From assembly GCA_028706735.1 (NCBI GenBank), contig JAQTVS010000024.1, forward strand, positions 1-15,790: a stretch of 15,790 bases of DNA, in the 5' to 3' direction. The DNA comes from Thiomonas sp. Its GTDB lineage: Bacteria; Pseudomonadota; Gammaproteobacteria; Burkholderiales; Burkholderiaceae_C. This document shows positions 2,756 to 12,030 of this stretch, piece after piece. The position numbers were made by a program, and so were the translations under genes. Under the pieces are notes generated by a model. The model was not told the DNA's origin. It saw nothing but the letters and a program-made list of their open reading frames with translations, and searched no databases. Every line of letters begins with the position of its first letter. Position 1 is the stretch's first letter.

Positions 2756-3139
2756 TCAAGCCCGCATCAAGAACAGTTCGGGCTGGTTGCGGCGATAAAC
2801 CCGCAGCCACAACAGCAGCGCCGGGGTCAGCGACTCGACGGCGAACCATAGCGCGTCATCGCAGGCCTCGCCGCGCGGCTCCATCAACTGCAGACCGGCG
2901 CGCAACCAACCCGGCCAGTCGATCTCGGGCATGGCCCGCTGCAGTTCCGGCGGCAGGGCTGCGAGGCTGTCGGTCAGGATGCGCAACTGCCGACTGACCT
3001 CCTCGCGCGTCAGGCGCGAACGCAACAAATCCTCGCGGCTGAGATTCTCCGCCAGGGTCAGGACGCCCAGGCCAGCCTGCTCGATGATGCCGAGCAAGGC
3101 CGTGCTGGCGATCTGGGCGCGCATCGCGGGCGGTGGCAT
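2756..3139 (-). CDS. HepT/DUF86 (HEPN)-like protein without the catalytic RNxxxH motif
   Basis: This 127-aa, mostly helical protein resembles the HepT/DUF86 branch of HEPN proteins: ENLSREDLLRSRLTREEV (31-48) mirrors the first two helices, LPPELQRAMPEIDW (62-75) the 'LPPEL-x-PEIPW' segment, and DDALWFAVESLTPALL (94-109) the C-terminal 'DLDILWDTV-x-LPxL' helix. From memory of the family, the alignment between PEIDW and DDALW needs no gap, and the nuclease residues Arg, Asn and His of RNxxxH fall on Gly82, Leu83 and Glu87. It would therefore be a non-catalytic member. No MNT-type antitoxin partner lies beside it; its neighbour is the [2Fe-2S] ferredoxin, whose stop is 5 bp before this ATG. The alternative start ATG at 3124 would begin closer to where HepT proteins usually start. 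Family call is by eye. Confidence 0.7.
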   Translation of the reverse strand: MPPPAMRAQIASTALLGIIEQAGLGVLTLAENLSREDLLRSRLTREEVSRQLRILTDSLAALPPELQRAMPEIDWPGWLRAGLQLMEPRGEACDDALWFAVESLTPALLLWLRVYRRNQPELFLMRA

Positions 3140-3144
3140 GACGC

Positions 3145-3441
3145 TCAGACGAAGCTGAGCAGTTCCACCGTCACCGGCTCATCGCCGAGCACGGCCTGGC
3201 AGGCCAGACGCGACTTGGAACTGACCCCCACAAGGGTGTCGAGTTTTTCATTTTCCAGGCGCTGAATCTTGGACAGGGTCTTGCGCCCGTCGTGCACGAA
3301 CACATGGCAGCTGCCGCACTCGGCCTTGCCGTCGCATTTTTGGGGAATCGCTTCGCCCGCTGCAAGCACGGCTTGCAGGATGGTGGCGCCGGCAGCGGCG
3401 TCGATGGTCTTACCGGAGGGGAGCAGGGTCAGGGTCGGCAT
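3145..3441 (-). CDS. [2Fe-2S] ferredoxin (plant/adrenodoxin fold), nif-associated
   Basis: A 98-aa soluble ferredoxin with ligands Cys36, Cys42, Cys45 and Cys81, spaced C-x5-C-x2-C-x35-C, as in the beta-grasp adrenodoxin-like/ISC-type ferredoxins. The N-terminus (PTLTLLPSGKTIDAAAG) is the usual first beta hairpin. Likely roles are electron supply to nitrogenase or to Fe-S cluster/cofactor assembly by NifS, IscA and NifB; the sequence cannot say which. No clear ribosome site precedes ATG 3441, and I find no sigma-54 promoter with correct spacing in the 238 bp upstream. That space is largely a palindromic element, so the gene may be read from the upstream nif operon. Confidence 0.93.
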   Translation of the reverse strand: MPTLTLLPSGKTIDAAAGATILQAVLAAGEAIPQKCDGKAECGSCHVFVHDGRKTLSKIQRLENEKLDTLVGVSSKSRLACQAVLGDEPVTVELLSFV

Positions 3442-3502
3442 GATGTGTCAAGTGTCAGAGTGGGGAGAAAAATGAGGCTGGATTTGTCTGCAAGGCGAGC
3501 AG

Positions 3503-3685
3503 GCCTCAGAGGGTGTGAATGCATCCGGCGTGGCCGGGCAGCGCGCCCAAAGGGTTCCAATCCAGGCGCAAAGCACAGCCGTGCCCGTCGGCACGGCGCG
3601 CACTTGCAACACCGAGCGCAACGCCGATTGGGGCGATTTGGGTGCGATGAGCGGGCATGGCGGATTTGTTCACACCCTCTCAGGC
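3503..3685. repeat. 183-bp imperfect palindrome between the SIR2-like gene and the [2Fe-2S] ferredoxin
   Basis: The outer 17 bases, GCCTCAGAGGGTGTGAA at 3503-3519, reappear in reverse complement at 3669-3685 with one mismatch. The likeness continues inward with interruptions for about 50 bases on each side (shared ATCCG, TGCCC/TGGCC, CGCNCCCAAA, CCAATC blocks). Near the centre is a perfect 8-bp hairpin, GCCGTGCC-CGTC-GGCACGGC (3578-3597). The right arm overlaps the stop codon of the SIR2-like gene (3680-3682). It may be a small palindromic mobile element (MITE-like) or a structured RNA between two operon parts. I could not identify target-site duplications, and there is no open reading frame of note inside. 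Confidence 0.7.
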
Positions 3686-4567
3686 GGCGACGGCCTGTGC
3701 ATCAGCCGCCGTGGTGGTGGTGAGCGCATCGCTCAGGCGGGCGGCAAATTCGGCCAGCGGCATGTCGATGCGCTGAATGTTCTGTTCGGCGAGAAAGCGC
3801 TCTTCCATCCGGGTGAGCGCATCGGGCAGGACCGCCCAGTGCGTGTCCGACGAACGCTTCATGATCTGGCGGGCGAAGTTGCGCGCAAGCTGGTCGTTGA
3901 AACGGCAGCCGACGAACAGAAAACTGCGCCCGCTGCGCAGCGCCTGCACGGGCTGCGGGATCGGCGTCTGGATGTCGATCTCAGTCAGCACCTCGACAAA
4001 GTCGGTGTCCGATACGAGGTAATTGGATGCCGGAGTGCGCCCGCCCAGAGGCTTGTAGAGCAGCGTGTTCCATCCCAGTGGCAGCGATGGCGCAAGACTG
4101 CCCATCAGGGTGTCGTCTGCCGCGTAGGCCGCCGTCCAAGCGCCGAAGTGCTCCGACTGCGACAGCCCTTGCACCTGCCCCCAACCGCCATGCGGATGGA
4201 CCTGCCGCATGGCGTTGAGCAGCGTGTCGTCGTACCAACTGTCGACCAGCAGCGGTGCGCCGCTGGCAGCCAGCGCCAGATGCAGGCGCGAGGGAGCCGG
4301 CGCCGTGGCGTAGGCCTCGTTCATCAGGTTCACCACGGTCTTGCGGTGCTTGAAGTTCTCGATGAACTGCGCCGCCTGCGTCAGGCGGCGGCGGATCTTG
4401 TGCGGCACGCTGGCCTTGGCCGTCATGCTCTCCGCCAGCGCTTCCGGGGTGGAGGGAATCTGCACGTCGGCGCACAGCGACAGCATGGCCGGGCCGAGGT
4501 AGGGAATGACGCTGCCTGCAGCGATCAAGCGGCTAATGGTGTGAATCTGCGAAGGTGCGGCATGCAT
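3680..4567 (-). CDS. SIR2-like domain protein with degenerate active site
   Basis: A 295-aa protein with the outline of the SIR2_2-type Rossmann domain found in bacterial NADases and sirtuin relatives: an N-terminal strand-turn (AAGSVIPYLGPAM, 16-28), LLVDSWYDDTLLNAM (106-120) where the family has 'TTNYDxLLExA', LLYKPLGG (169-176) where it has 'xKLHG', and SFLFVGCRFND (215-225) matching 'LLFVGYSLxDP'. By this alignment the catalytic Asn is Trp111 and the His is Leu174, and the N-terminal GAGxS loop is altered, so NAD hydrolysis or deacetylation is doubtful. ATG 4567 is preferred, 22 bp after the DegT-like stop; ATG 4621 in the same frame would overlap that gene by 32 bp. It is the last gene of the tightly packed nifB run. 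Its role in nitrogen fixation is unknown. Confidence 0.8.
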   Translation of the reverse strand: MHAAPSQIHTISRLIAAGSVIPYLGPAMLSLCADVQIPSTPEALAESMTAKASVPHKIRRRLTQAAQFIENFKHRKTVVNLMNEAYATAPAPSRLHLALAASGAPLLVDSWYDDTLLNAMRQVHPHGGWGQVQGLSQSEHFGAWTAAYAADDTLMGSLAPSLPLGWNTLLYKPLGGRTPASNYLVSDTDFVEVLTEIDIQTPIPQPVQALRSGRSFLFVGCRFNDQLARNFARQIMKRSSDTHWAVLPDALTRMEERFLAEQNIQRIDMPLAEFAARLSDALTTTTAADAQAVAA

Positions 4568-4589
4568 GGCGTGGCTTTCACTTGGACGT

Positions 4590-5753
4590 TCAGAGATAGA
4601 TTGCGGCCCCGGCGCCGACATTCACCGAGGCGTCCTTGAGGGTCTTGACGATGAAGCGCACCTGGCCCTCATCCAGGCCGGCGTGCAAGGGCAGCGCAAG
4701 CGAGCGGTCACCGATGCGATCCGTCAGCGGGAGCTGCCCGCGCGCCATGCCGATCTGCTGGTAATGGAACTGCTGGTGCAGCGGCAGGCAATAGGCGGCA
4801 GTCTCGATGTGATCGGCGGCGAGGTCGTCGATGATCTGCCGCCGTCCGCTGGCGGTGAAACGCGCGCCGAGATGCACGACGTACAGCATCCAGTGGACTT
4901 CATCCACGTCCTGTCCAAGATACGGCGGCTTGATTCCCTCGAAGGTCCGCATCTGCTCGAGGTACCAGGACTCGACCTGCTTGCGGCGCGCGAGGATCTG
5001 CTCGATGCGCGCAAGCTGCGCCAGTCCCAGCGCCGCGGTGAGTTCGCTCATGGCAGCCTGCAGCGGCACCCGGCTGCCGACTGAGATGGACTGGCGATCG
5101 CGCATGTCGCGCCGACGCAGCATGCGTAGTTCGGCGGCAAGCTCCGCATCGTCGGTGACCACCATGCCGCCCTCCCCCACGCACAGCGCGCTGGGTTGGG
5201 AGAAGTCGAACACCGCAAGATCGCCAAAACTGCCCACCCGCCGACCCGCATAGCGCGAACCGATGGCTTCGGTGCTGTCTTCGATCAACGTCACGCCGTG
5301 GGCATTCGCCAGTTGGCGCAACGCATGCCACTCTGCGGGATGGCCGTTGGTGTTGCCGGCCATGATCGCCCTTGTGCGCGGGTTGATGTGCAACGCCGCG
5401 CGTTCCGGATTCATGCACCCGGTCCAGTAATTGATCTCGGCGCAGACCGGGGTCGCACCGGCCCAGGCAACCGCATGCGCAAGTTGGCGCCAGCCGTAGG
5501 CCGACACGATCACCTCGTCGCCCGGCCCGATCCGCAGAGCCCGCAGCGCCAGCAAGGCGCCCAGCGTGCCGCTGGCCACCGCCACGGCATGGCCACGCCC
5601 CGTGCGCTCGGCAAAGGCGGCCTCGAAACGTTCGGCAAACGGACCTTCGCTGAGGCGCGGCGCGCGCAGGACCGCCTGCACCACCTCGCTCTCGACCTCG
5701 CCGAGGTCGGGCTCGGACAAGGCGATCCAGTCATCATCCGGATCGGGGTTCAT
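4590..5753 (-). CDS. DegT/DnrJ/EryC1/StrS-fold protein lacking the PLP lysine
   Basis: A 387-aa protein with the fold-type I layout of sugar aminotransferases: SGTLGALLALRALRIGPGDEVIV (61-83), the cofactor Asp in IEDSTEAIGSRYAG (Asp159), and GSFGDLAVFDFSQPSAL followed by GEGGMVVTDD (174-202). In the family the last stretch reads 'FSFHxTKxLxxGEGG', with Lys forming the Schiff base to PLP. Counting back from GEGG, that position here is Ser188. Normal transamination is therefore unlikely. No sugar-biosynthesis genes are nearby; it sits between a small unknown protein, whose stop it overlaps as ATGA, and the SIR2-like gene. It may be a structural or regulatory pseudoenzyme, or use PLP non-covalently (some relatives replace Lys with His). 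Such genes occur in other nif clusters, to my recollection, without assigned function. Confidence 0.88.
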   Translation of the reverse strand: MNPDPDDDWIALSEPDLGEVESEVVQAVLRAPRLSEGPFAERFEAAFAERTGRGHAVAVASGTLGALLALRALRIGPGDEVIVSAYGWRQLAHAVAWAGATPVCAEINYWTGCMNPERAALHINPRTRAIMAGNTNGHPAEWHALRQLANAHGVTLIEDSTEAIGSRYAGRRVGSFGDLAVFDFSQPSALCVGEGGMVVTDDAELAAELRMLRRRDMRDRQSISVGSRVPLQAAMSELTAALGLAQLARIEQILARRKQVESWYLEQMRTFEGIKPPYLGQDVDEVHWMLYVVHLGARFTASGRRQIIDDLAADHIETAAYCLPLHQQFHYQQIGMARGQLPLTDRIGDRSLALPLHAGLDEGQVRFIVKTLKDASVNVGAGAAIYL

Positions 5754-6013
5754 GCGATACCTCCCTCGGCGATGAACAGCGCGGCGGCGCGCGACAGATC
5801 GTTGGTGACATGCCAGCAATGGCCGTCACTCGCGCCCAGCCACAAGGTGCGCAAGCGCCCTTGTGCGGCGGGAGTCTCGTCGCGCATGTCGCCCGCCTCC
5901 ACCGCGCTCACGCGCATCGCTGGGAAGCACTGGCGCAATGCCGTGACGGCGGCCCGCGTGTCGGGCGCGGAATCGGCCAGGGTCGAGGCAAGTTGCAGAT
6001 CGGCGGCGTCCAT
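5750..6013 (-). CDS. Small nif-cluster protein of unknown function (87 aa; possibly DUF6129)
   Basis: ATG 6013 starts 4 bp after the nifT stop and the TGA overlaps the DegT-like ATG (ATGA), so translation is probably coupled on both sides. The 87-aa protein has an acidic helical N-terminal half (MDAADLQLASTLADSAP) and a C-terminal part with LRTLWLGASDGHCWHV, ending in a helix. One Cys lies in each half. No membrane segment or known catalytic motif is visible. I recall small uncharacterised proteins (DUF6129) at this place after nifT in other nif clusters, but cannot confirm membership here. Confidence 0.8.
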   Translation of the reverse strand: MDAADLQLASTLADSAPDTRAAVTALRQCFPAMRVSAVEAGDMRDETPAAQGRLRTLWLGASDGHCWHVTNDLSRAAALFIAEGGIA

Positions 6014-6017
6014 GGCG

Positions 6018-6227
6018 TCACTCTCCCACTTTGCGTGCTTCCACCGTGACCGGCAAGCGGGTCTGCTCCGCCATCTCCGGCAACTCCAGGGTCCAGCCAT
6101 TGGCCAGCGTCACCGAACCACCCCACAGATGCGGGTGTTGCTGCGACACGATGGGTTCTTCCAGATCTTTCTTCGGCACGTAAGCGAAGAGGTGGCCCTC
6201 GGCGTTCTTGCGGATCATGACTTTCAT
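6018..6227 (-). CDS. nifT: NifT/FixU family protein
   Basis: A 69-aa protein beginning MKVMIRKNAEGHLFAYVPKK with the family's central WGGSVTLANGW block and a LELPEM segment, close to the usual length of about 72 aa. NifT is a small, probably beta-rich cytoplasmic protein, commonly found in nif operons; loss has little phenotype in tested species and the biochemical role is unknown. It often follows nifK, but here it stands between nifS (21 bp upstream) and the 87-aa protein (4 bp downstream). The ribosome site is weak (AGAAAG). Confidence 0.93.
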   Translation of the reverse strand: MKVMIRKNAEGHLFAYVPKKDLEEPIVSQQHPHLWGGSVTLANGWTLELPEMAEQTRLPVTVEARKVGE

Positions 6228-6248: not shown

Positions 6249-7439
6249 TCAATGGACGGCCGCAAGGCGCTCGGCCTCGCTGCTCTGCGCCTGCAGCAGC
6301 GGCAGGACATGCTGTCGCAGCGCGTCGAGCGCGGCATCGATCTCGTCCGCGGTGGTGTCGCGGCCGAGAGAAAAACGCACGCCGCAGAGTGCGTGTTGCG
6401 GGCTCTCTCCCATCGCCAGCAGCACGTGCGACGGCTGATTGCCGCCTGCGCTGCAGGCCGCGCCAGAGGCGGCGATGATGTCTGCGCGCTCCAGCGCGTG
6501 CAGCACGCGTTCGGCCAGCAGTTGGCCAAACCGCACCAGCGTGGTGTTGGGCAAACGCGGCCCGGCGGCGCCATAGAGGCGCACTGCGCGATGCGCCGCC
6601 GCGATGTGCAGCACACCCGACTCCAAGCGCTGGCGCAGCGCCGCCATGCCCGCAAGATCCGCAGCCAGACAACGATGCATGCGCTCGGCAGCGGCGGCGA
6701 AACCGACGATCCCCGGCAGGTTTTCCGTGCCGCCACGCCGTCCGCGCTCTTGCCGCCCCGCCTGCAGCCCCGGCCAGTCCAGCCCCTTGCGCACGAGCAG
6801 CGCCCCCACGCCCTTGGGGCCGTTGAACTTGTGCGCGGAGACCGACCACAGATCCGCGCCACTGTCGGCGAAACGCAGTGAACTCTTGCCGACGAGTTGG
6901 GTGGCATCCACGTGGAGCAAGGCGCCCCGGGCATGCGCCAATTCGGCCAGTTCCTCCAGCGGCATGCAGACCCCGGTCTCGTTGTTCGCACCCATCACGC
7001 TGACCAGCGCCACGTCCGGCCCGATCAGAGCGCGCGCCGCGTTCATATCGAGCCGGCCTTCGCCGTCCACCGGAATCAGATCCACCGCATGCCCCGCCGC
7101 GCGCAGCCGCTCTGCCAGTGCCAGAGAGGATGGGTGCTCGACTGCTGACAACACCAGCCGCGGCCGTCCCTTTGCCGCTTCGCCGCGCCGCGGGTCGAGC
7201 GCACCGAGCAGGGCAATGTGGTTGGCCTCGGTCGCTCCGCTGGTGAACACCGGCTCGGCGGGATGGCAGCCCAGAGCTTGCGCCACGCGCGCCCGGGCGT
7301 CAGCCAGCACGCGGCGTGCCGCCTGCCCGGGGCCGTGGGTGGACGAGGGATTCGCCCAGGCCCGCTCAAGCACAGCGCACATTTCGTTGATGACTTCGGC
7401 GGCCACGGGGGTGGTGGCGTTGTGGTCGAGGTAGATCAT
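6249..7439 (-). CDS. nifS: Cysteine desulfurase NifS
   Basis: NifS uses PLP to take sulfur from cysteine as a protein persulfide for Fe-S clusters of nitrogenase and NifB. The 396-aa protein opens MIYLDHNATTPV, has His102 in SAVEHPS, the PLP Lys204 in SVSAHKFNGPKG, RRGGTEN (235-240), and the catalytic Cys329 in SGAACSAG. This is the class I (NifS/IscS) arrangement and length. The ATG overlaps the stop of the preceding gene as ATGA. The scaffold NifU, usually next to nifS, is absent from the window; the nif-type IscA a few genes upstream may be the nearest partner. Confidence 0.97.
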   Translation of the reverse strand: MIYLDHNATTPVAAEVINEMCAVLERAWANPSSTHGPGQAARRVLADARARVAQALGCHPAEPVFTSGATEANHIALLGALDPRRGEAAKGRPRLVLSAVEHPSSLALAERLRAAGHAVDLIPVDGEGRLDMNAARALIGPDVALVSVMGANNETGVCMPLEELAELAHARGALLHVDATQLVGKSSLRFADSGADLWSVSAHKFNGPKGVGALLVRKGLDWPGLQAGRQERGRRGGTENLPGIVGFAAAAERMHRCLAADLAGMAALRQRLESGVLHIAAAHRAVRLYGAAGPRLPNTTLVRFGQLLAERVLHALERADIIAASGAACSAGGNQPSHVLLAMGESPQHALCGVRFSLGRDTTADEIDAALDALRQHVLPLLQAQSSEAERLAAVH

Positions 7440-7801
7440 TGCCAAAACTCCCGCCCGCCATCGACGACCAGACGGTCGAGCACGTCGGACAGCCGCCGGC
7501 TGCGGGCACGCAGATCCCAGCTCTGGCGCGCATGATCGCGGGAGAACAGCAGCCAGCCTCCCTCGCCGTCCGGCGTCAGCCAGGCGATGGCGATGTCCCC
7601 GCCCTGCTTGTCGATCCTGCGCGAACAGTTGGGGCTGACGATCTTCCAGCCATCGCCTTCGGCTTCGACGCGCGGATGCACATAGCGGTAGCGACTGCGC
7701 TGCGCGATGGCGCGCTCGATGTGCGCCATCACCAGATCGCGCACCACGTCCGCGCCACGCGACGCATCGGCAAAGTCCTGGACGACGCGCAGCCTGCTCA
7801 T
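7436..7801 (-). CDS. Uncharacterised nif-operon protein, DUF3024-like (121 aa)
   Basis: A short helical N-terminus leads to a beta-rich domain: RYRYVHPRVEAEGDGWKIVSP, then NCSRRIDKQGGDIAIAWL, GGWLLFSRDHARQSW, and a helical end. The small beta-rich domain with charged strands recalls DUF3024 proteins, but I hold that only tentatively. One Cys (in SPNCSRR). The ATG at 7801 shares a TGATG overlap with the nifZ stop (a GTG one codon earlier is possible), and its own stop overlaps the nifS ATG, so it is translationally locked between nifZ and nifS. Function unknown. Confidence 0.82.
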   Translation of the reverse strand: MSRLRVVQDFADASRGADVVRDLVMAHIERAIAQRSRYRYVHPRVEAEGDGWKIVSPNCSRRIDKQGGDIAIAWLTPDGEGGWLLFSRDHARQSWDLRARSRRLSDVLDRLVVDGGREFWQ

Positions 7802-8130
7802 CACACCGTCTCGGCCGCGGGCGCTGAAACGGCGGCCGGCGCAAGTTCATCTTCCGTGCAGCCCAGCACGTGCTCACCGAAATCGACCACATAGATCGGC
7901 ATGTCGGCCTCGGCATGGTGGCCGATGCGCACGATCTCGCCCACGGCGCCCGCGGCGACGAGCATGGCGCCATCGTCCGCCTTCGGGTAGCTGCCGTCGT
8001 TGTGCAGATCGACCAGCGCCTGCACCTGCAGACCCCAGGGATACCTCGGCTGCCGGGGGGGATGCGGAAACACGGCGGCCACGTCTTGCGCCTCAGGCGC
8101 TCTCAGCTCGGCTGCATGGAATTCAGACAT
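7801..8130 (-). CDS. nifZ: NifZ-domain protein (second copy, 109 aa)
   Basis: After a Pro-rich N-terminal tail (1-33) the protein has the NifZ domain: WGLQVQALVDLHNDGSYP, then VGEIVRIGHHAEADMPIYVVDFG and VLGCTEDEL. The same order of motifs appears in the adjacent 130-aa protein, so the two are diverged tandem homologues. NifZ assists formation of the second P-cluster of the MoFe protein by acting on [4Fe-4S] precursor pairs. Its start overlaps the end of the other NifZ gene by 8 bp (ATG at 8130, stop at 8123), and its stop is shared with the next start in TGATG. Division of labour between the copies is unknown. Confidence 0.88.
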   Translation of the reverse strand: MSEFHAAELRAPEAQDVAAVFPHPPRQPRYPWGLQVQALVDLHNDGSYPKADDGAMLVAAGAVGEIVRIGHHAEADMPIYVVDFGEHVLGCTEDELAPAAVSAPAAETV

Positions 8131-8515
8131 GGCGTTCTCCTTCGGTGCTGGCTTGGACTGCGGCGCGTTCGTCGCCCGGAATGAAGCCGCGCAACTGCGC
8201 CAGTTTGCTGTCGCCGAGCCGCTCGATCAGCTCCGGCGGCAGCTTGTCGAGCGACATGAGTTCGCGCCCCTTCATGCCGACCAGGCACCCGGTGGCAACG
8301 AAATCGACGGCGTAGATGTAGTACTGCTGCAAAAACGTTCCCACCGACGTGACGTAGCCGATGTCGCCCTTGTTCACCAGCACCTCGCCGATCTCGCGGC
8401 CGCGGTACGTGCCGTCATTGCGCACGACATAGCGGCTGATGACGCGCTCGCCGAAATCGAACTGCGGCGGGCCTTCGAGCTCGACCACATCGCTGTCGCG
8501 GCTGATGTCAGCCAT
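8123..8515 (-). CDS. nifZ: NifZ family protein (130 aa)
   Basis: This is the closer match to classical NifZ: PQFDFGERVISRYVVRNDGTYRG (17-39), then VNKGDIGYVTSVGTFLQQYYIYAVDF (47-72) and VGMKGRELM (79-87), with a helical C-terminal tail to residue 130. Classical NifZ is about 100-160 aa. It is expected to act with the nitrogenase MoFe protein during P-cluster maturation. The ATG at 8515 overlaps the stop of the TPR-like gene by 8 bp, giving probable coupling. A longer upstream frame is only the shadow of that gene. Confidence 0.92.
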   Translation of the reverse strand: MADISRDSDVVELEGPPQFDFGERVISRYVVRNDGTYRGREIGEVLVNKGDIGYVTSVGTFLQQYYIYAVDFVATGCLVGMKGRELMSLDKLPPELIERLGDSKLAQLRGFIPGDERAAVQASTEGERHV

Positions 8516-9098
8516 GGATGGCTCCACGGCCCACGGGCGCCGTCGCCACCGGCGGGATGCGGGCGGCGTCACCGTCCAGCTCGTCCTCGTCTTCGTCATA
8601 GGGGTTGCGCTCGCGGCGCAGACGCACGGTTTCGAGCAGGGCGCCGCCGACCCGGTCTTCTGGGTCGAGCGCACGCAGCAGATCCAGGGCGTCGCGCGCC
8701 TCGTGCGCATCGCCCAGGCGCAGGCTGAGGTAGGCATACCCCTTGAGAGAAAACAGGAAAAAGCGCGTCGCCGGATCGTCCCGCGCGCCTGCCAGCGCCT
8801 TCGGAGGCACATCCCGCCACAACAACGGCAGACCCAGCGCCTGCGTGGCGACAAACAACGCGCGCCGCGCCACGTCGCGTGCGCAGGCAAGCTGGTGACC
8901 GTAGAAGTAATAGCGATACAGCGCAATCAGCACGGCCGGATGATCCGGCGCCAAGGCCAAGGCGCGCATCAATGCGGCCATGGCCAGGACGGGATCGGCG
9001 CGACGCACTCCGGCCTCCCGCAGAGTCTGTTCCAGCGGCTCGGGCAAGTCCTTGCCCAGAACCGCATCTCCAAAGTCCGGCTGAACGCGCGTGCTCAT
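8508..9098 (-). CDS. TPR-like helical protein in nif operon (196 aa)
   Basis: An all-helical protein with paired-helix repeats of TPR type: DPVLAMAALMRALALAPDHP (36-54) followed by AVLIALYRYYFYGHQLACARDVARRAL, then RFFLFSLKGYAYLSLRLGDAHEARDALDLL around 112-141 with LRALDPED closing the repeat. The C-terminus is acidic (NPYDEDEDELDGD, 165-177) and then disordered. No signal peptide. TPR proteins hold partner proteins, so an assembly or chaperone role for nitrogenase parts is plausible but inferred. ATG 9098 is chosen for the AGGCGG ribosome-like sequence upstream; TTG 9113 is possible. It lies 20 bp after iscA and overlaps nifZ. Confidence 0.85.
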   Translation of the reverse strand: MSTRVQPDFGDAVLGKDLPEPLEQTLREAGVRRADPVLAMAALMRALALAPDHPAVLIALYRYYFYGHQLACARDVARRALFVATQALGLPLLWRDVPPKALAGARDDPATRFFLFSLKGYAYLSLRLGDAHEARDALDLLRALDPEDRVGGALLETVRLRRERNPYDEDEDELDGDAARIPPVATAPVGRGAIHG

Positions 9099-9118
9099 GA
9101 TGTCCGCCTGCAAGCGCC

Positions 9119-9508
9119 TCAGCGGCGCAGCAGCGCGCTCATCGGCACGCTGGCCGCGGCGGGGATGGCCTCTGCGCCACCCGCGCTGGAGCAGCCACAG
9201 GAACTTGCCGCCGGACTGCGCACGCTGAGCCCGGACTGCATCGGCGTGTCGATGAAGTCGAGCGTCGCGCCCTCCAGCAGCAGACGGCTCTCGGCTGGAA
9301 GAAAAAGCTGCAACCCCTCGCCCGCGTTGAAAACCTCGTCATCGGCCTCCGGAGCGGCCTCAGCATTGAATTCGGTGCTGTAGCCCGAGCAGCCCCCGGC
9401 GCTGACCAGCAGGCGGAAGCCCGCCCCCGCGGGCAGGCCGGAGAATCGGACAATGCGGCGCATGAATTTTTCCGCCGCCGGCGTGATAGTGAGATGGGTC
9501 AGGGCCAT
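9119..9508 (-). CDS. iscA: Nif-type IscA (HesB/IscA family) Fe-S carrier
   Basis: A 129-aa A-type carrier. Ligand cysteines are Cys40 (SAGGCSGYS) and the CGC pair Cys104/Cys106, the usual three. The first strands (LTITPAAEKFMRRIV) and SGYSTEF are standard. It is longer than housekeeping IscA (about 107 aa) because of a 20-residue Ala/Ser-rich tail after CGC. It should carry or donate Fe-S clusters, or iron, to nitrogenase-related proteins; with no nifU in the window it may be the main Fe-S carrier encoded here. ATG 9508 has a GGAGA ribosome site 7 nt away. Lies 31 bp after the ferredoxin gene. Confidence 0.93.
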   Translation of the reverse strand: MALTHLTITPAAEKFMRRIVRFSGLPAGAGFRLLVSAGGCSGYSTEFNAEAAPEADDEVFNAGEGLQLFLPAESRLLLEGATLDFIDTPMQSGLSVRSPAASSCGCSSAGGAEAIPAAASVPMSALLRR

Positions 9509-9539
9509 GAGTTGTCTCCGCGCAGATGGAATGATGGCT

Positions 9540-9734
9540 TCAGGCCTTGACAATGCAGCCATCGACCGGGCAGACCGCGACGCATTGCGGGCTGTCGAAC
9601 TGGTCTTCGCATTCGGTGCACTTGGCCGGGTCGATGATGTAGGTGCCGCCTTTTTCGCGGATGGCGGTGTTGGGGCATTCGGGCTCGCAGGCGGAGCAGC
9701 CGGTGCAGGTTGAAGCGATGATTTTCAGTGCCAT
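9540..9734 (-). CDS. fdxN: 2[4Fe-4S] ferredoxin (FdxN-like) after nifB
   Basis: A 64-aa bacterial ferredoxin with Cys10-x2-Cys13-x2-Cys16-x3-Cys20-Pro for the first half and Cys39-x2-Cys42-x8-Cys51-x3-Cys55-Pro for the second; the eight-residue gap is the Alvin-type insertion. Cys60 is extra. FdxN proteins encoded next to nifB support NifB activity and FeMo-co synthesis, probably by giving electrons to the radical SAM enzyme. It starts 33 bp after nifB with a strong AGGAGA ribosome site, as part of the nifB operon. Confidence 0.94.
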
Positions 9735-9767
9735 GATGATCTCCTGGTGTCGCTGCTGGATGAAAGC

Positions 9768-11339
9768 TCAGGCCGCCGCAGTGAAAGCGCCCTGACGGAT
9801 GGTGGCGTCACCACGCGGGGTGTGGCGCAACTCGCCGTTGGCGATGCGCTGACGGTACTTGGCGAACCAGCTCAGCGCGGCCTTCTCGATGTATTCATGG
9901 GCGTACTCGTCCACCGGCTCGATGCCAGCGGCCATCAACTCGTCGCGCGGGCAGGCGCCGATCTTGGCCACCAGCACGGCGTGGCAGTCGTTGATGGCGT
10001 TGACGATGGACGGCAACTGCTCGTCCTCGCCATAGCCGCCCTGGCAATACAGATCGACGCGGCGATGGCCGACGAACATCGCCGCGTCCTTGCGCACCTG
10101 AAAAATCTGAAACTCGGTGGCGTGGCCGAAATGCTGGTTCACCTTGCCGTGGCCTTCCGTGGCCACCGCCAGCAGCACCTGCATGTCGGGGTCCACGTTC
10201 TCCAGATCCAGCGCGGCGGCCAGGGCGTCCACCTTCGCCTGGTGTTGCGACTGGCGCTCCTGCTCCACCTTCTCCTGGTAAGCCCGGCGCTTGTCGAGGT
10301 CGTACACCACTTCCATGTTCTCGATCTTGTCAAGCGTGAATTCCTCGCTGCGGTCCTCGCCCAGCAGCCCCACGGCATCAGCTCGGCACTGGCGGCAATG
10401 GCGCATCAGATTGGCGCCGCCCATGCAGGCGTCCTGCACGGCTTTCAGCTCTTGTGCCGTGGGGCCGCGCTGGCCGGTGAGGCCGAAGACGGTGCCATGC
10501 TCCGCCTCGCTGATCAGCGGCATGATGTTGTGCAGGAAGGCGCCGCGCTTCTTCACCTCACGGTTCACCTCGATCAGGTGTTTGTCGTTGATGCCGGGGA
10601 TCAACACCGAATTGATCTTCGTGAGCACGCCGCGCGCGGTCAGCATTTCCAGCCCGAGCATTTGGCGTTCATGCAAGATGCGCGCGGCTTCTACGCCAGT
10701 CACACGCTTGTGGTCCCAGAAAATCCACGGATAAATCTTGGCGCCGATCTCAGGATCGACCATATTGATGGTGATGGTGACGTGATCAATGTTGTGCTTG
10801 CAGATCTCGTCCACCATGTCGGGCAGGGCCAGGCCGTTGGTGGACAGGCACAGCTTGATGTCGGGCGCCTTCTCGCTGAGCGCACGCATGGTGTCGAACG
10901 TTTTTTTCGGATTGGCCAGCGCATCGCCCGGCCCTGCAATACCCAGCACCGTCATCTGCGGAATCTCGCTGGCAACGGCCAGCACCTTCTTCACCGCCTG
11001 TTCCGGCGTGAGCTTCTGGCTGACCACGCCAGGACGCGATTCGTTGGAACAGTCGTACTTGCGGTTGCAGTAATTGCACTGGATGTTGCACGCCGGCGCC
11101 ACCGCCACATGCATGCGGGCGAAGTGGTGATGCGCTTCTTCGGAATAACAGGGGTGGTTCTTGACCTTGTCCCAGATCTCGGCCGGCATGTCGTCCGGGC
11201 CGCCCGACGAGCCGCAGCTCGCCTTGCCTTCCCCGCCTTCGCTGGAACAGCCGCCGCCAGAGTCCGGCAGAGTCATGGAAACGGCCCGCTTGGTGCGCAG
11301 CAGATCACCCAGGGCGACGGTGGCAGTCGGAGCGTTCAT
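9768..11339 (-). CDS. nifB: NifB, radical SAM FeMo-cofactor core (NifB-co) synthase with NifX-like domain
   Basis: NifB fuses two [4Fe-4S] clusters and inserts the central carbide to make NifB-co. The 523-aa protein has a Gly/Ser/Cys-rich N-terminus (about 27-47), the radical SAM motif Cys84-x3-Cys88-x2-Cys91, [12 protein letters not shown] (133-144), [10 protein letters not shown] (277-286), [11 protein letters not shown] with Cys315 and Cys318 (substrate-cluster ligand region), and a C-terminal NifX/NafY-like domain from about 387 ([13 protein letters not shown] onward), the fusion usual in proteobacteria. ATG 11339 has a GAGG ribosome site about 7 nt upstream and is only about 26 nt from the predicted transcription start; an in-frame upstream ATG at 11414 would lie above the promoter. 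It heads the long minus-strand operon. Confidence 0.98.
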
Positions 11340-11375
11340 CGGGTACCTCGTCAGTTGGTAGTTCAACCACTGCAT

Positions 11376-11391
11376 AGCGAGACCCGTGCCA
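11376..11391 (-). promoter_or_regulatory. sigma-54 promoter of nifB
   Basis: On the minus strand TGGCACGGGTCTCGCT keeps a perfect -24 TGGCAC, the 5-base spacer and the -12 GC, with one deviation (TCGC for TTGC). Start of transcription is expected near 11365, giving a 26-nt leader to the nifB ATG. It has a NifA site about 45 bp upstream. Confidence 0.85.
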
Positions 11392-11408
11392 GCATGAATT
11401 TCGTTGTT

Positions 11409-11421
11409 ATTCAATTAGTTA
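11409..11421. promoter_or_regulatory. Candidate IHF site in the nifB promoter
   Basis: ATTCAATTAGTTA matches WATCAANNNNTTR at 12 of 13 positions and lies in a locally AT-rich patch between the nifB -24 box and the NifA site, the expected place for IHF-assisted looping. Confidence 0.45.
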
Positions 11422-11503: not shown

Positions 11504-11575
11504 CCGCAGTGTCCGCAGTGTCCGCAGTGTCCGCAGTGTCCGCAGTGTCCGCAGTGTCCGCAGTGTCCGCAGTGC
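11504..11575. repeat. 9-bp tandem repeat (minisatellite), about 8 copies
   Basis: Seven exact copies of CCGCAGTGT in direct tandem (11504-11566) and an eighth differing only in the last base (to 11575). The unit length is a multiple of three, so any frame across it stays open. It lies just upstream of the nifB control elements and downstream of cyaY. Such exact arrays tend to vary in copy number by slippage. Confidence 0.95.
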
Positions 11576-11712: not shown

Positions 11713-12030
11713 TCAGGTCAACTGCAGAACCGGGCCGCCTTGTGCGGTGACCGCGGCTTGGAGCAGGGCCTGAAAGCCCTGCCCCGTGCGGGTATCCAGC
11801 CACTGCTGTGCGGAGCAGCGGAAATGATGCGCCCCTGACTTGCTCGCCAGCCACAGCTCCTGCAGAGGCGCTTGCAGGTTGATGATGATCTTCTCTTTGT
11901 TGTCGAGTGCGAGTGTGAGCACTGCGCCATCGCGCCGCGTGTCGAGACCGGCCCTGTCCGCAGCCGCTTCCACGGCGGCGAGCATGGCCTCGGCAAGCCG
12001 GAAGTAATCACTCTGTGGCATGGCGGTCAC
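11713..12030 (-). CDS. cyaY: Iron donor protein CyaY (bacterial frataxin)
   Basis: A 105-aa frataxin-fold protein. It begins (M)PQSDYFRLAEAML, aligning with the first helix of E. coli CyaY, and has the signature KIIINLQAPLQELWLASKSGAHHF (about 47-70) and a WLDTRTGQGF segment near the end; length matches E. coli CyaY (106 aa). CyaY binds iron and the cysteine desulfurase and tunes Fe-S cluster assembly. Its place between nifA and nifB suggests a copy that serves NifS and nitrogenase, which is inference. GTG 12030 is given because GAGGAGG lies 8 nt upstream; ATG 12021 fits the family start better and is only three codons in. No sigma-54 promoter was seen directly upstream; it may be read with nifA. 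Confidence 0.93.
   Translation of the reverse strand: MTAMPQSDYFRLAEAMLAAVEAAADRAGLDTRRDGAVLTLALDNKEKIIINLQAPLQELWLASKSGAHHFRCSAQQWLDTRTGQGFQALLQAAVTAQGGPVLQLT

Follow-up and report, generated by a model that had tools for sequence, protein, structure and literature searches.

The window analysed here, a 15,790-nucleotide stretch of Thiomonas sp. DNA (contig JAQTVS010000024.1), carries a nif gene run in which a gene for a DegT-like protein is followed by a gene for a SIR2-like protein. Our tentative explanation, to which we give somewhat less than an even chance, is that both enzyme folds were co-opted as accessory proteins that are non-catalytic and specific to nif and may support nitrogenase in respiring cells. 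A first, sequence-only reading had joined them with a third gene, for a HepT-like protein, into one accessory module; the conserved unit is DegT–SIR2, not three genes. All three genes are intact frames in the window. The claim that three clean full-length frames lack canonical catalytic residues was borne out, and the loss is family-wide for DegT and SIR2, less so for HepT.

The DegT-like protein matched PF01041 along the full-length family profile (299 bits, residues 17–372) and in this resembles the DegT/DnrJ/EryC1/StrS aminotransferases such as perosamine synthetase and ArnB. It differs from them at the position of the lysine that binds pyridoxal 5'-phosphate (PLP), where the Lys of perosamine synthetase 3bn1 aligned with Ser188 of the window protein. 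Residue counts covered 221 distinct relatives, of which 219 aligned at this position; these are the nearest relatives found and are not independent of one another. The position held Ser in 164, Gly in 39, Ala in 8, Leu in 5, Cys in 2, and Gln in 1, and Lys in none of the 219. Asp159 was retained in 219 of 219. Where perosamine synthetase has the NYR stretch, the window protein has LQA, with Gln232 present in 210 of the 221 relatives. The roles of the residues at the Lys position, Asp159, and the NYR stretch are assumed here from general knowledge of such enzymes. A Lys-less DegT protein could still do chemistry in the manner of the ColD-type pyridoxamine 5'-phosphate enzymes, and the universal Asp159, together with other His, Cys, and Trp residues invariant among 22 rows, is consistent with this. 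We consider it improbable, however, because His was never found at the Lys position and the NYR stretch is replaced.

The SIR2-like protein was recognized by the PF13289 profile and by the fold test. No match was obtained for it or for the HepT-like protein in the NCBIfam scan, and the PADLOC scan returned weak SIR2 matches alone (E 0.03 or worse). A single-sequence PDB search gave unrelated matches (Pks13, E 0.002) and was discarded. In the alignment, TTNYD of KomC and SeThsA fell on dtWYD of the family (DSWYD in the window), and GAG of KomC fell on GPG of the profile (GPA in the window). Among 263 distinct relatives, again the nearest found and not independent, the Asn column held Trp in 242, Asn in 20, and Gly in 1, and the Asn rows formed one clade. 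The probable catalytic His column, the choice of which rests on four PHG sequences and on position, held Leu174 in the window and His in 4 of the 263. Asn and the probable His occurred together in none of the 263. The absence of the catalytic Asn and of the probable His and the nif context distinguish the window protein from the anti-phage SIR2 proteins ThsA, KomC, and DSR2. Separately, a 469-amino-acid SIR2 + TIR-like protein, ThsA-like by PADLOC, was noticed at L054:6859-8268, in a genome without nifD.

An active NAD-dependent deacetylase, controlling nitrogenase through lysine deacetylation as proposed for ZMO1821 of Zymomonas, has been another possible role for such a protein. The Zymomonas nif island encodes a predicted SIR2 deacetylase that is upregulated during N2 fixation, and both nitrogenase and NifA are acetylated (PMC8600466). 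The residues of the SIR2 relatives seen argue against this role, and we regard it as very unlikely.

In a SIR2 tree of 81 rows without an outgroup, 19 Asn-bearing rows were split off by one branch (100/100); the other side held Trp, Gly, and Trp-His rows. The window protein belongs to the Trp-bearing clade of nif SIR2 proteins, which is 22–28% identical to the Asn-bearing clade. The residues missing from one subfamily are thus not those missing from the other, a pattern that could have arisen by parallel loss or if two SIR2 lineages were recruited separately. Matches to both subfamilies were found together in 0 of 59 SIR2-positive genomes, not all candidates being scored, as if one subfamily replaced the other in a genome.

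Occurrence was surveyed in 379 Burkholderiales genomes. The SIR2 protein was found in 59 (42 close, 17 distant), after exclusion of 4 of 63 genomes with weak matches (E > 1e-15). nifD was likewise found in 59 (55 full, 4 partial or lower matches), after exclusion of 19 of 78 weak nifD-like genomes (E > 1e-30); as a control, the nifD family search was checked on 14 known genomes and gave signals in 3, in one of them above the cut-off. Counted regardless of relatedness, 57 genomes had both genes, 2 SIR2 alone, 2 nif alone, and 318 neither. The genomes with SIR2 and without nifD, G170 and G378, are both drafts, and G378 (L056) has nifA and nifB beside DegT–SIR2. nifD without SIR2 occurred in G167 and in G407, a lower match. 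The DegT profile was detected in 32 genomes at E ≤ 1e-90 (weakest 2.3e-177), 30 with nifD and all 32 with SIR2. In a phylum sample, SIR2 was present in 13 of 209 genomes, of which 12 had nifD above the cut-off and the remaining one a nifD-like match below it. Plasmid records matching the window SIR2 protein numbered 75, of which 69 were from Rhizobium, Mesorhizobium, or Sinorhizobium. In all three records inspected the gene lay among nif genes, directly after nifT in Rhizobium etli and after DegT in Paraburkholderia and Methylococcus.

Gene order was compared in the 80 best loci out of at least 587; these named loci are skewed to near relatives, and short ones were scored as misses. Matches were found to NifT in 75, the DUF6129-like protein in 72, DegT in 70, the ferredoxin in 67, and HepT in 31, and the order NifT–DUF6129–DegT–SIR2–ferredoxin was kept. 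One of these loci, L078 of Paraburkholderia xenovorans LB400, has SIR2, DegT, and the ferredoxin. At least 1.2 kb of upstream sequence was available in 74 named loci: in 65 the end of DegT was no more than 300 bp from SIR2, in 3 more it was no more than 550 bp away, and 6 had no DegT. Some loci had SIR2 without an adjoining DegT gene, including L058, L059, and L067. In these three, a Cache-CheW protein of ~900 amino acids is encoded between NifT and a NifZ-like gene, where other loci have NifS (L067:10217-12904, L058:5485-8334, L059:10483-13230).

Ratios of nonsynonymous to synonymous substitution rates (dN/dS) were estimated on tblastn footprints from pairs with dS 0.05–1.2; some NifB, NifZ, and HepT pairs exceeded 2. 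The medians were 0.126 for DegT (111 pairs), 0.186 for SIR2 (124), and 0.199 for the ferredoxin (102), to be compared with 0.228 for NifS (88), 0.128 for NifT (119), 0.091 for NifB (96), and 0.038 for nifH (25). DegT and SIR2 are under purifying selection, with a constraint comparable to that on NifS. The expectation that the genes are selected and nif-linked thus held for this pair: neither scattered occurrence in the co-occurrence survey nor relaxed selection by dN/dS was found. SIR2 and HEPN are folds characteristic of defence and toxin systems, and the genes might be decaying or hitch-hiking, for example as defence remnants, without a role in nitrogen fixation; against purifying selection and nif-restricted occurrence across many genera, this explanation is scarcely credible.

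The HepT-like protein is a peripheral, nif-restricted companion with looser constraint and the weakest of the three cases of catalytic loss. R-x4-6-H is absent from the window protein; the pattern was found in 14 of 152 relatives, in about nine at a plausible spacing (R-x4-H). The profile of this HepT-like family matched 10 true HepTs, all with RNxxxH, and among eight relatives that were scanned, three gave weak HepT matches below the Pfam cut-off. The top 11 VIA entries for the protein were HEPN toxins, and PADLOC gave no match. Its gene is flanked by those of the ferredoxin and an FmdB-type zinc ribbon protein, neither of which matches an MntA family in Pfam. The protein differs from the HepT RNase toxin of MntA-HepT both in the missing R-x4-6-H and in the missing MntA match next to it.

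At E < 1e-25, with 20 of 41 genomes (E 7e-10 or worse) excluded, HepT was found in 21 of the 379 genomes, 20 with nifD, all 21 with SIR2, and four without DegT. It followed SIR2 within 3.5 kb in 29 of the 68 named loci with room. These counts favour DegT, SIR2, and HepT as a single functional unit. Nevertheless, 39 of the 59 nif genomes have no HepT, nif genes are missing around it in G260 and G230 and around one of the G093 copies, and its constraint is weaker (median dN/dS 0.398 from 25 pairs, range 0.04–2.25). A three-gene module, as first proposed, is therefore improbable. Four HepT-like copies, each on its own contig, are present in G093 (L191). The palindrome between SIR2 and the ferredoxin is a repeat element and was rejected as a component of the module: it is similar to a miniature inverted-repeat transposable element (window 3503–3685), has 60-nt terminal arms, overlaps the SIR2 stop codon with its end, and occurs in the genome in at least 21 near-full-length copies (at least 165 bp, 82–100% identical, its own copy counted).

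The module had been thought wholly undescribed, which does not hold for its SIR2 part. The nif cluster of Pseudomonas stutzeri A1501 contains pnfA (PST1325), published in 2010, whose ~32-kDa product was reported from diazotrophs alone and whose expression depends on NifA and sigma54 (PMC2820453). At 0.5% oxygen, a non-polar mutant retained 23% of wild-type nitrogenase activity with unchanged nifH transcript, and its complementation was reported as data not shown; under strict anaerobiosis it equalled the wild type, and with nitrate as acceptor it did not fix nitrogen. The authors suggested a role in electron transfer or oxygen protection, listed relatives in diazotrophs (AvoP of A. vinelandii, Azoarcus BH72, and D. 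aromatica), and sorted them into two subfamilies, with 20% identity for the second (PMC2820453). We infer that this second subfamily is that of the window SIR2 protein. The passages on PnfA in that paper mention neither the SIR2 fold nor absent catalytic residues; PST_1325 was later annotated as a SIR2 family protein (PMC11332353). In R. capsulatus, the SIR2 family protein Rcc03262 adjoins NifT and was undetected in a nifA mutant (PMC6925177), and SIR2 proteins are found in the nif clusters of Rhodobacter, Rhodovulum, and Zymomonas (PMC6925177, PMC9412634, PMC8594446, PMC8600466). PnfA is probably a distant relative of the window SIR2 protein from the other, Asn-bearing subfamily. The two are alike as diazotroph-restricted nif-cluster proteins with a SIR2 family annotation; they differ by the wide gap in identity between the clades and in context, pnfA being transcribed divergently from nifH, whereas the window SIR2 gene shares the strand of nifH and is part of the nifB run, after NifT and with a DegT neighbour. 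Among the literature matches listed, no report of a nif-linked DegT protein was found, and the relevant passages of PMC4101177 name no nif-linked DegT, SIR2, or HEPN protein. Nothing decisive came from passages of PMC3912193, PMC4578398, PMC6053447, PMC3916325, and PMC10581106.

The co-direction of the genes and the 4-base overlap between the stop of the DUF6129-like gene and the start of DegT suggest that DegT and SIR2 would be made together with the nifB–nifZ–nifT genes. By analogy with PnfA, full nitrogenase activity in microaerobic or nitrate-respiring cells would require SIR2 at a stage later than nifH transcription; under strict anaerobiosis without nitrate it would be dispensable. We infer a DegT–SIR2 partnership with a ligand: the two may bind one another or nitrogenase-maturation partners, may retain a pocket (for a nucleotide, or for a PLP- or amino-sugar-like compound) that serves as a scaffold or sensor, and might, together with the ISC-type ferredoxin, help to maintain the iron-sulfur clusters or the electron supply of nitrogenase during respiration. 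A more elaborate and rather doubtful version is a heteromeric pseudoenzyme sensor in which the ligand of SIR2 is NAD, ADP-ribose, or another nucleotide and that of DegT is a PLP- or amino-acid-like compound, and which docks on nitrogenase or the Fe-S machinery and matches activity to the respiratory state; the second nif SIR2 subfamily would do likewise without DegT.

DegT and SIR2 could instead be chaperones or scaffolds for NifS, NifB, NifZ, or NifT in the assembly of the iron-molybdenum cofactor or of Fe-S clusters, with no part in oxygen or redox protection. The neighbours in the run (NifB, ferredoxins, IscA, NifZ, NifS, and NifT) and the adjoining ferredoxin, nearest to the ISC type, fit such a function. 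The wild-type behaviour of the pnfA mutant under strict anaerobiosis is unexpected for a pure assembly factor, and DegT occurs without an adjoining NifS (L075); we hold this alternative to be less probable, though a serious competitor of accessory proteins for respiring cells.

Several points weigh against the accessory role itself. SIR2 is missing from 23 of 35 nif genomes in the phylum sample and DegT from 29 of the 59 Burkholderiales nif genomes, so neither is essential for nitrogen fixation. G167 has nifD and lacks SIR2, four nif-positive genomes depend on partial or lower nifD matches, and the co-occurrence counts take genomes as they stand. DegT lies ~22 kb from SIR2 in G251, and a candidate DegT–SIR2 fusion in G522 (590-amino-acid frame) proved to be two separate genes. 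Annotation and synteny are what place PnfA in the Asn-bearing clade, and the low identity between the clades may reflect separate recruitment of two SIR2 lineages; because of this wide gap, we slightly lowered our confidence in the explanation.

The features of the window are listed in Table 1. On the minus strand, the run is ordered nifB, ferredoxin, iscA, TPR, two nifZ-like genes, DUF3024, nifS, nifT, DUF6129-like, DegT, SIR2, 2Fe-2S ferredoxin, and HepT, and the named close homologues of its proteins are mostly from Thiomonas.

Table 1. Genes of the nif run in the window, with coordinates and strand.
Feature	Coordinates	Strand	Remark
DegT-like pseudo-aminotransferase, 387 amino acids	4590..5753	-	Ser188 at PLP Lys position (FDFSQPSALC); nif-restricted
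SIR2-like (PF13289) pseudoenzyme, 295 amino acids, ATG at 4567	3680..4567	-	GAG to GPA, TTN to DSW, probable His to Leu174
2Fe-2S ferredoxin	3145..3441	-	Sequence closer to ISC-type Fdx (1i7h) than to FeSII
HepT-like HEPN protein, 127 amino acids, without R-x4-6-H	2756..3139	-	Looser companion
Small protein, weak DUF6129 likeness (15.3 bits, below cut-off)	5750..6013	-	
NifT, usual upstream neighbour	6018..6227	-	
NifS-type cysteine desulfurase, same co-directional run	6249..7439	-	
Remaining co-directional run: DUF3024 protein, two NifZ-like, TPR protein, IscA-type, ferredoxin, NifB	7436..11414	-	

Protection of the Shethna FeSII type by the ferredoxin next to SIR2 was rejected, since its match to ISC Fdx (2.8e-14) was better than that to FeSII (1.9e-4). 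Near the nifB start, a sigma54-like site with one mismatch and a TGT-N10-ACA site were found, with pattern counts at chance level. Upstream of nifH, an exact sigma54 -24/-12 pattern (minus strand, 1004–1018) and a TGT-N10-ACA site (1097–1112) were present, whole-window counts again being at chance level. Beside nifH, positions 1371–1955 encode a protein without a Pfam match; it was matched in 31 of the 80 named loci, and weak matches followed the SIR2 gene or lay close to it in several loci of the Asn clade. nifB is adjoined by a frataxin gene (CyaY, 95 bits; 11713–12030), to our knowledge unusual inside a nif cluster, and a perfect 9-bp tandem repeat (CCGCAGTGT, 7.9 copies) lies between the two at 11504–11574.

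The "SIR2 family protein" that recurs in nif clusters, listed by some databases as a deacylase and put forward as a deacetylase in Zymomonas, is recast by these data as probably non-catalytic. If the explanation is true, nif SIR2 proteins would be connected with a nitrogenase phenotype already in the literature and would gain a pseudo-aminotransferase partner for which we found no report. If confirmed, it would name accessory factors that may be missing when nif genes are transferred into respiring hosts.

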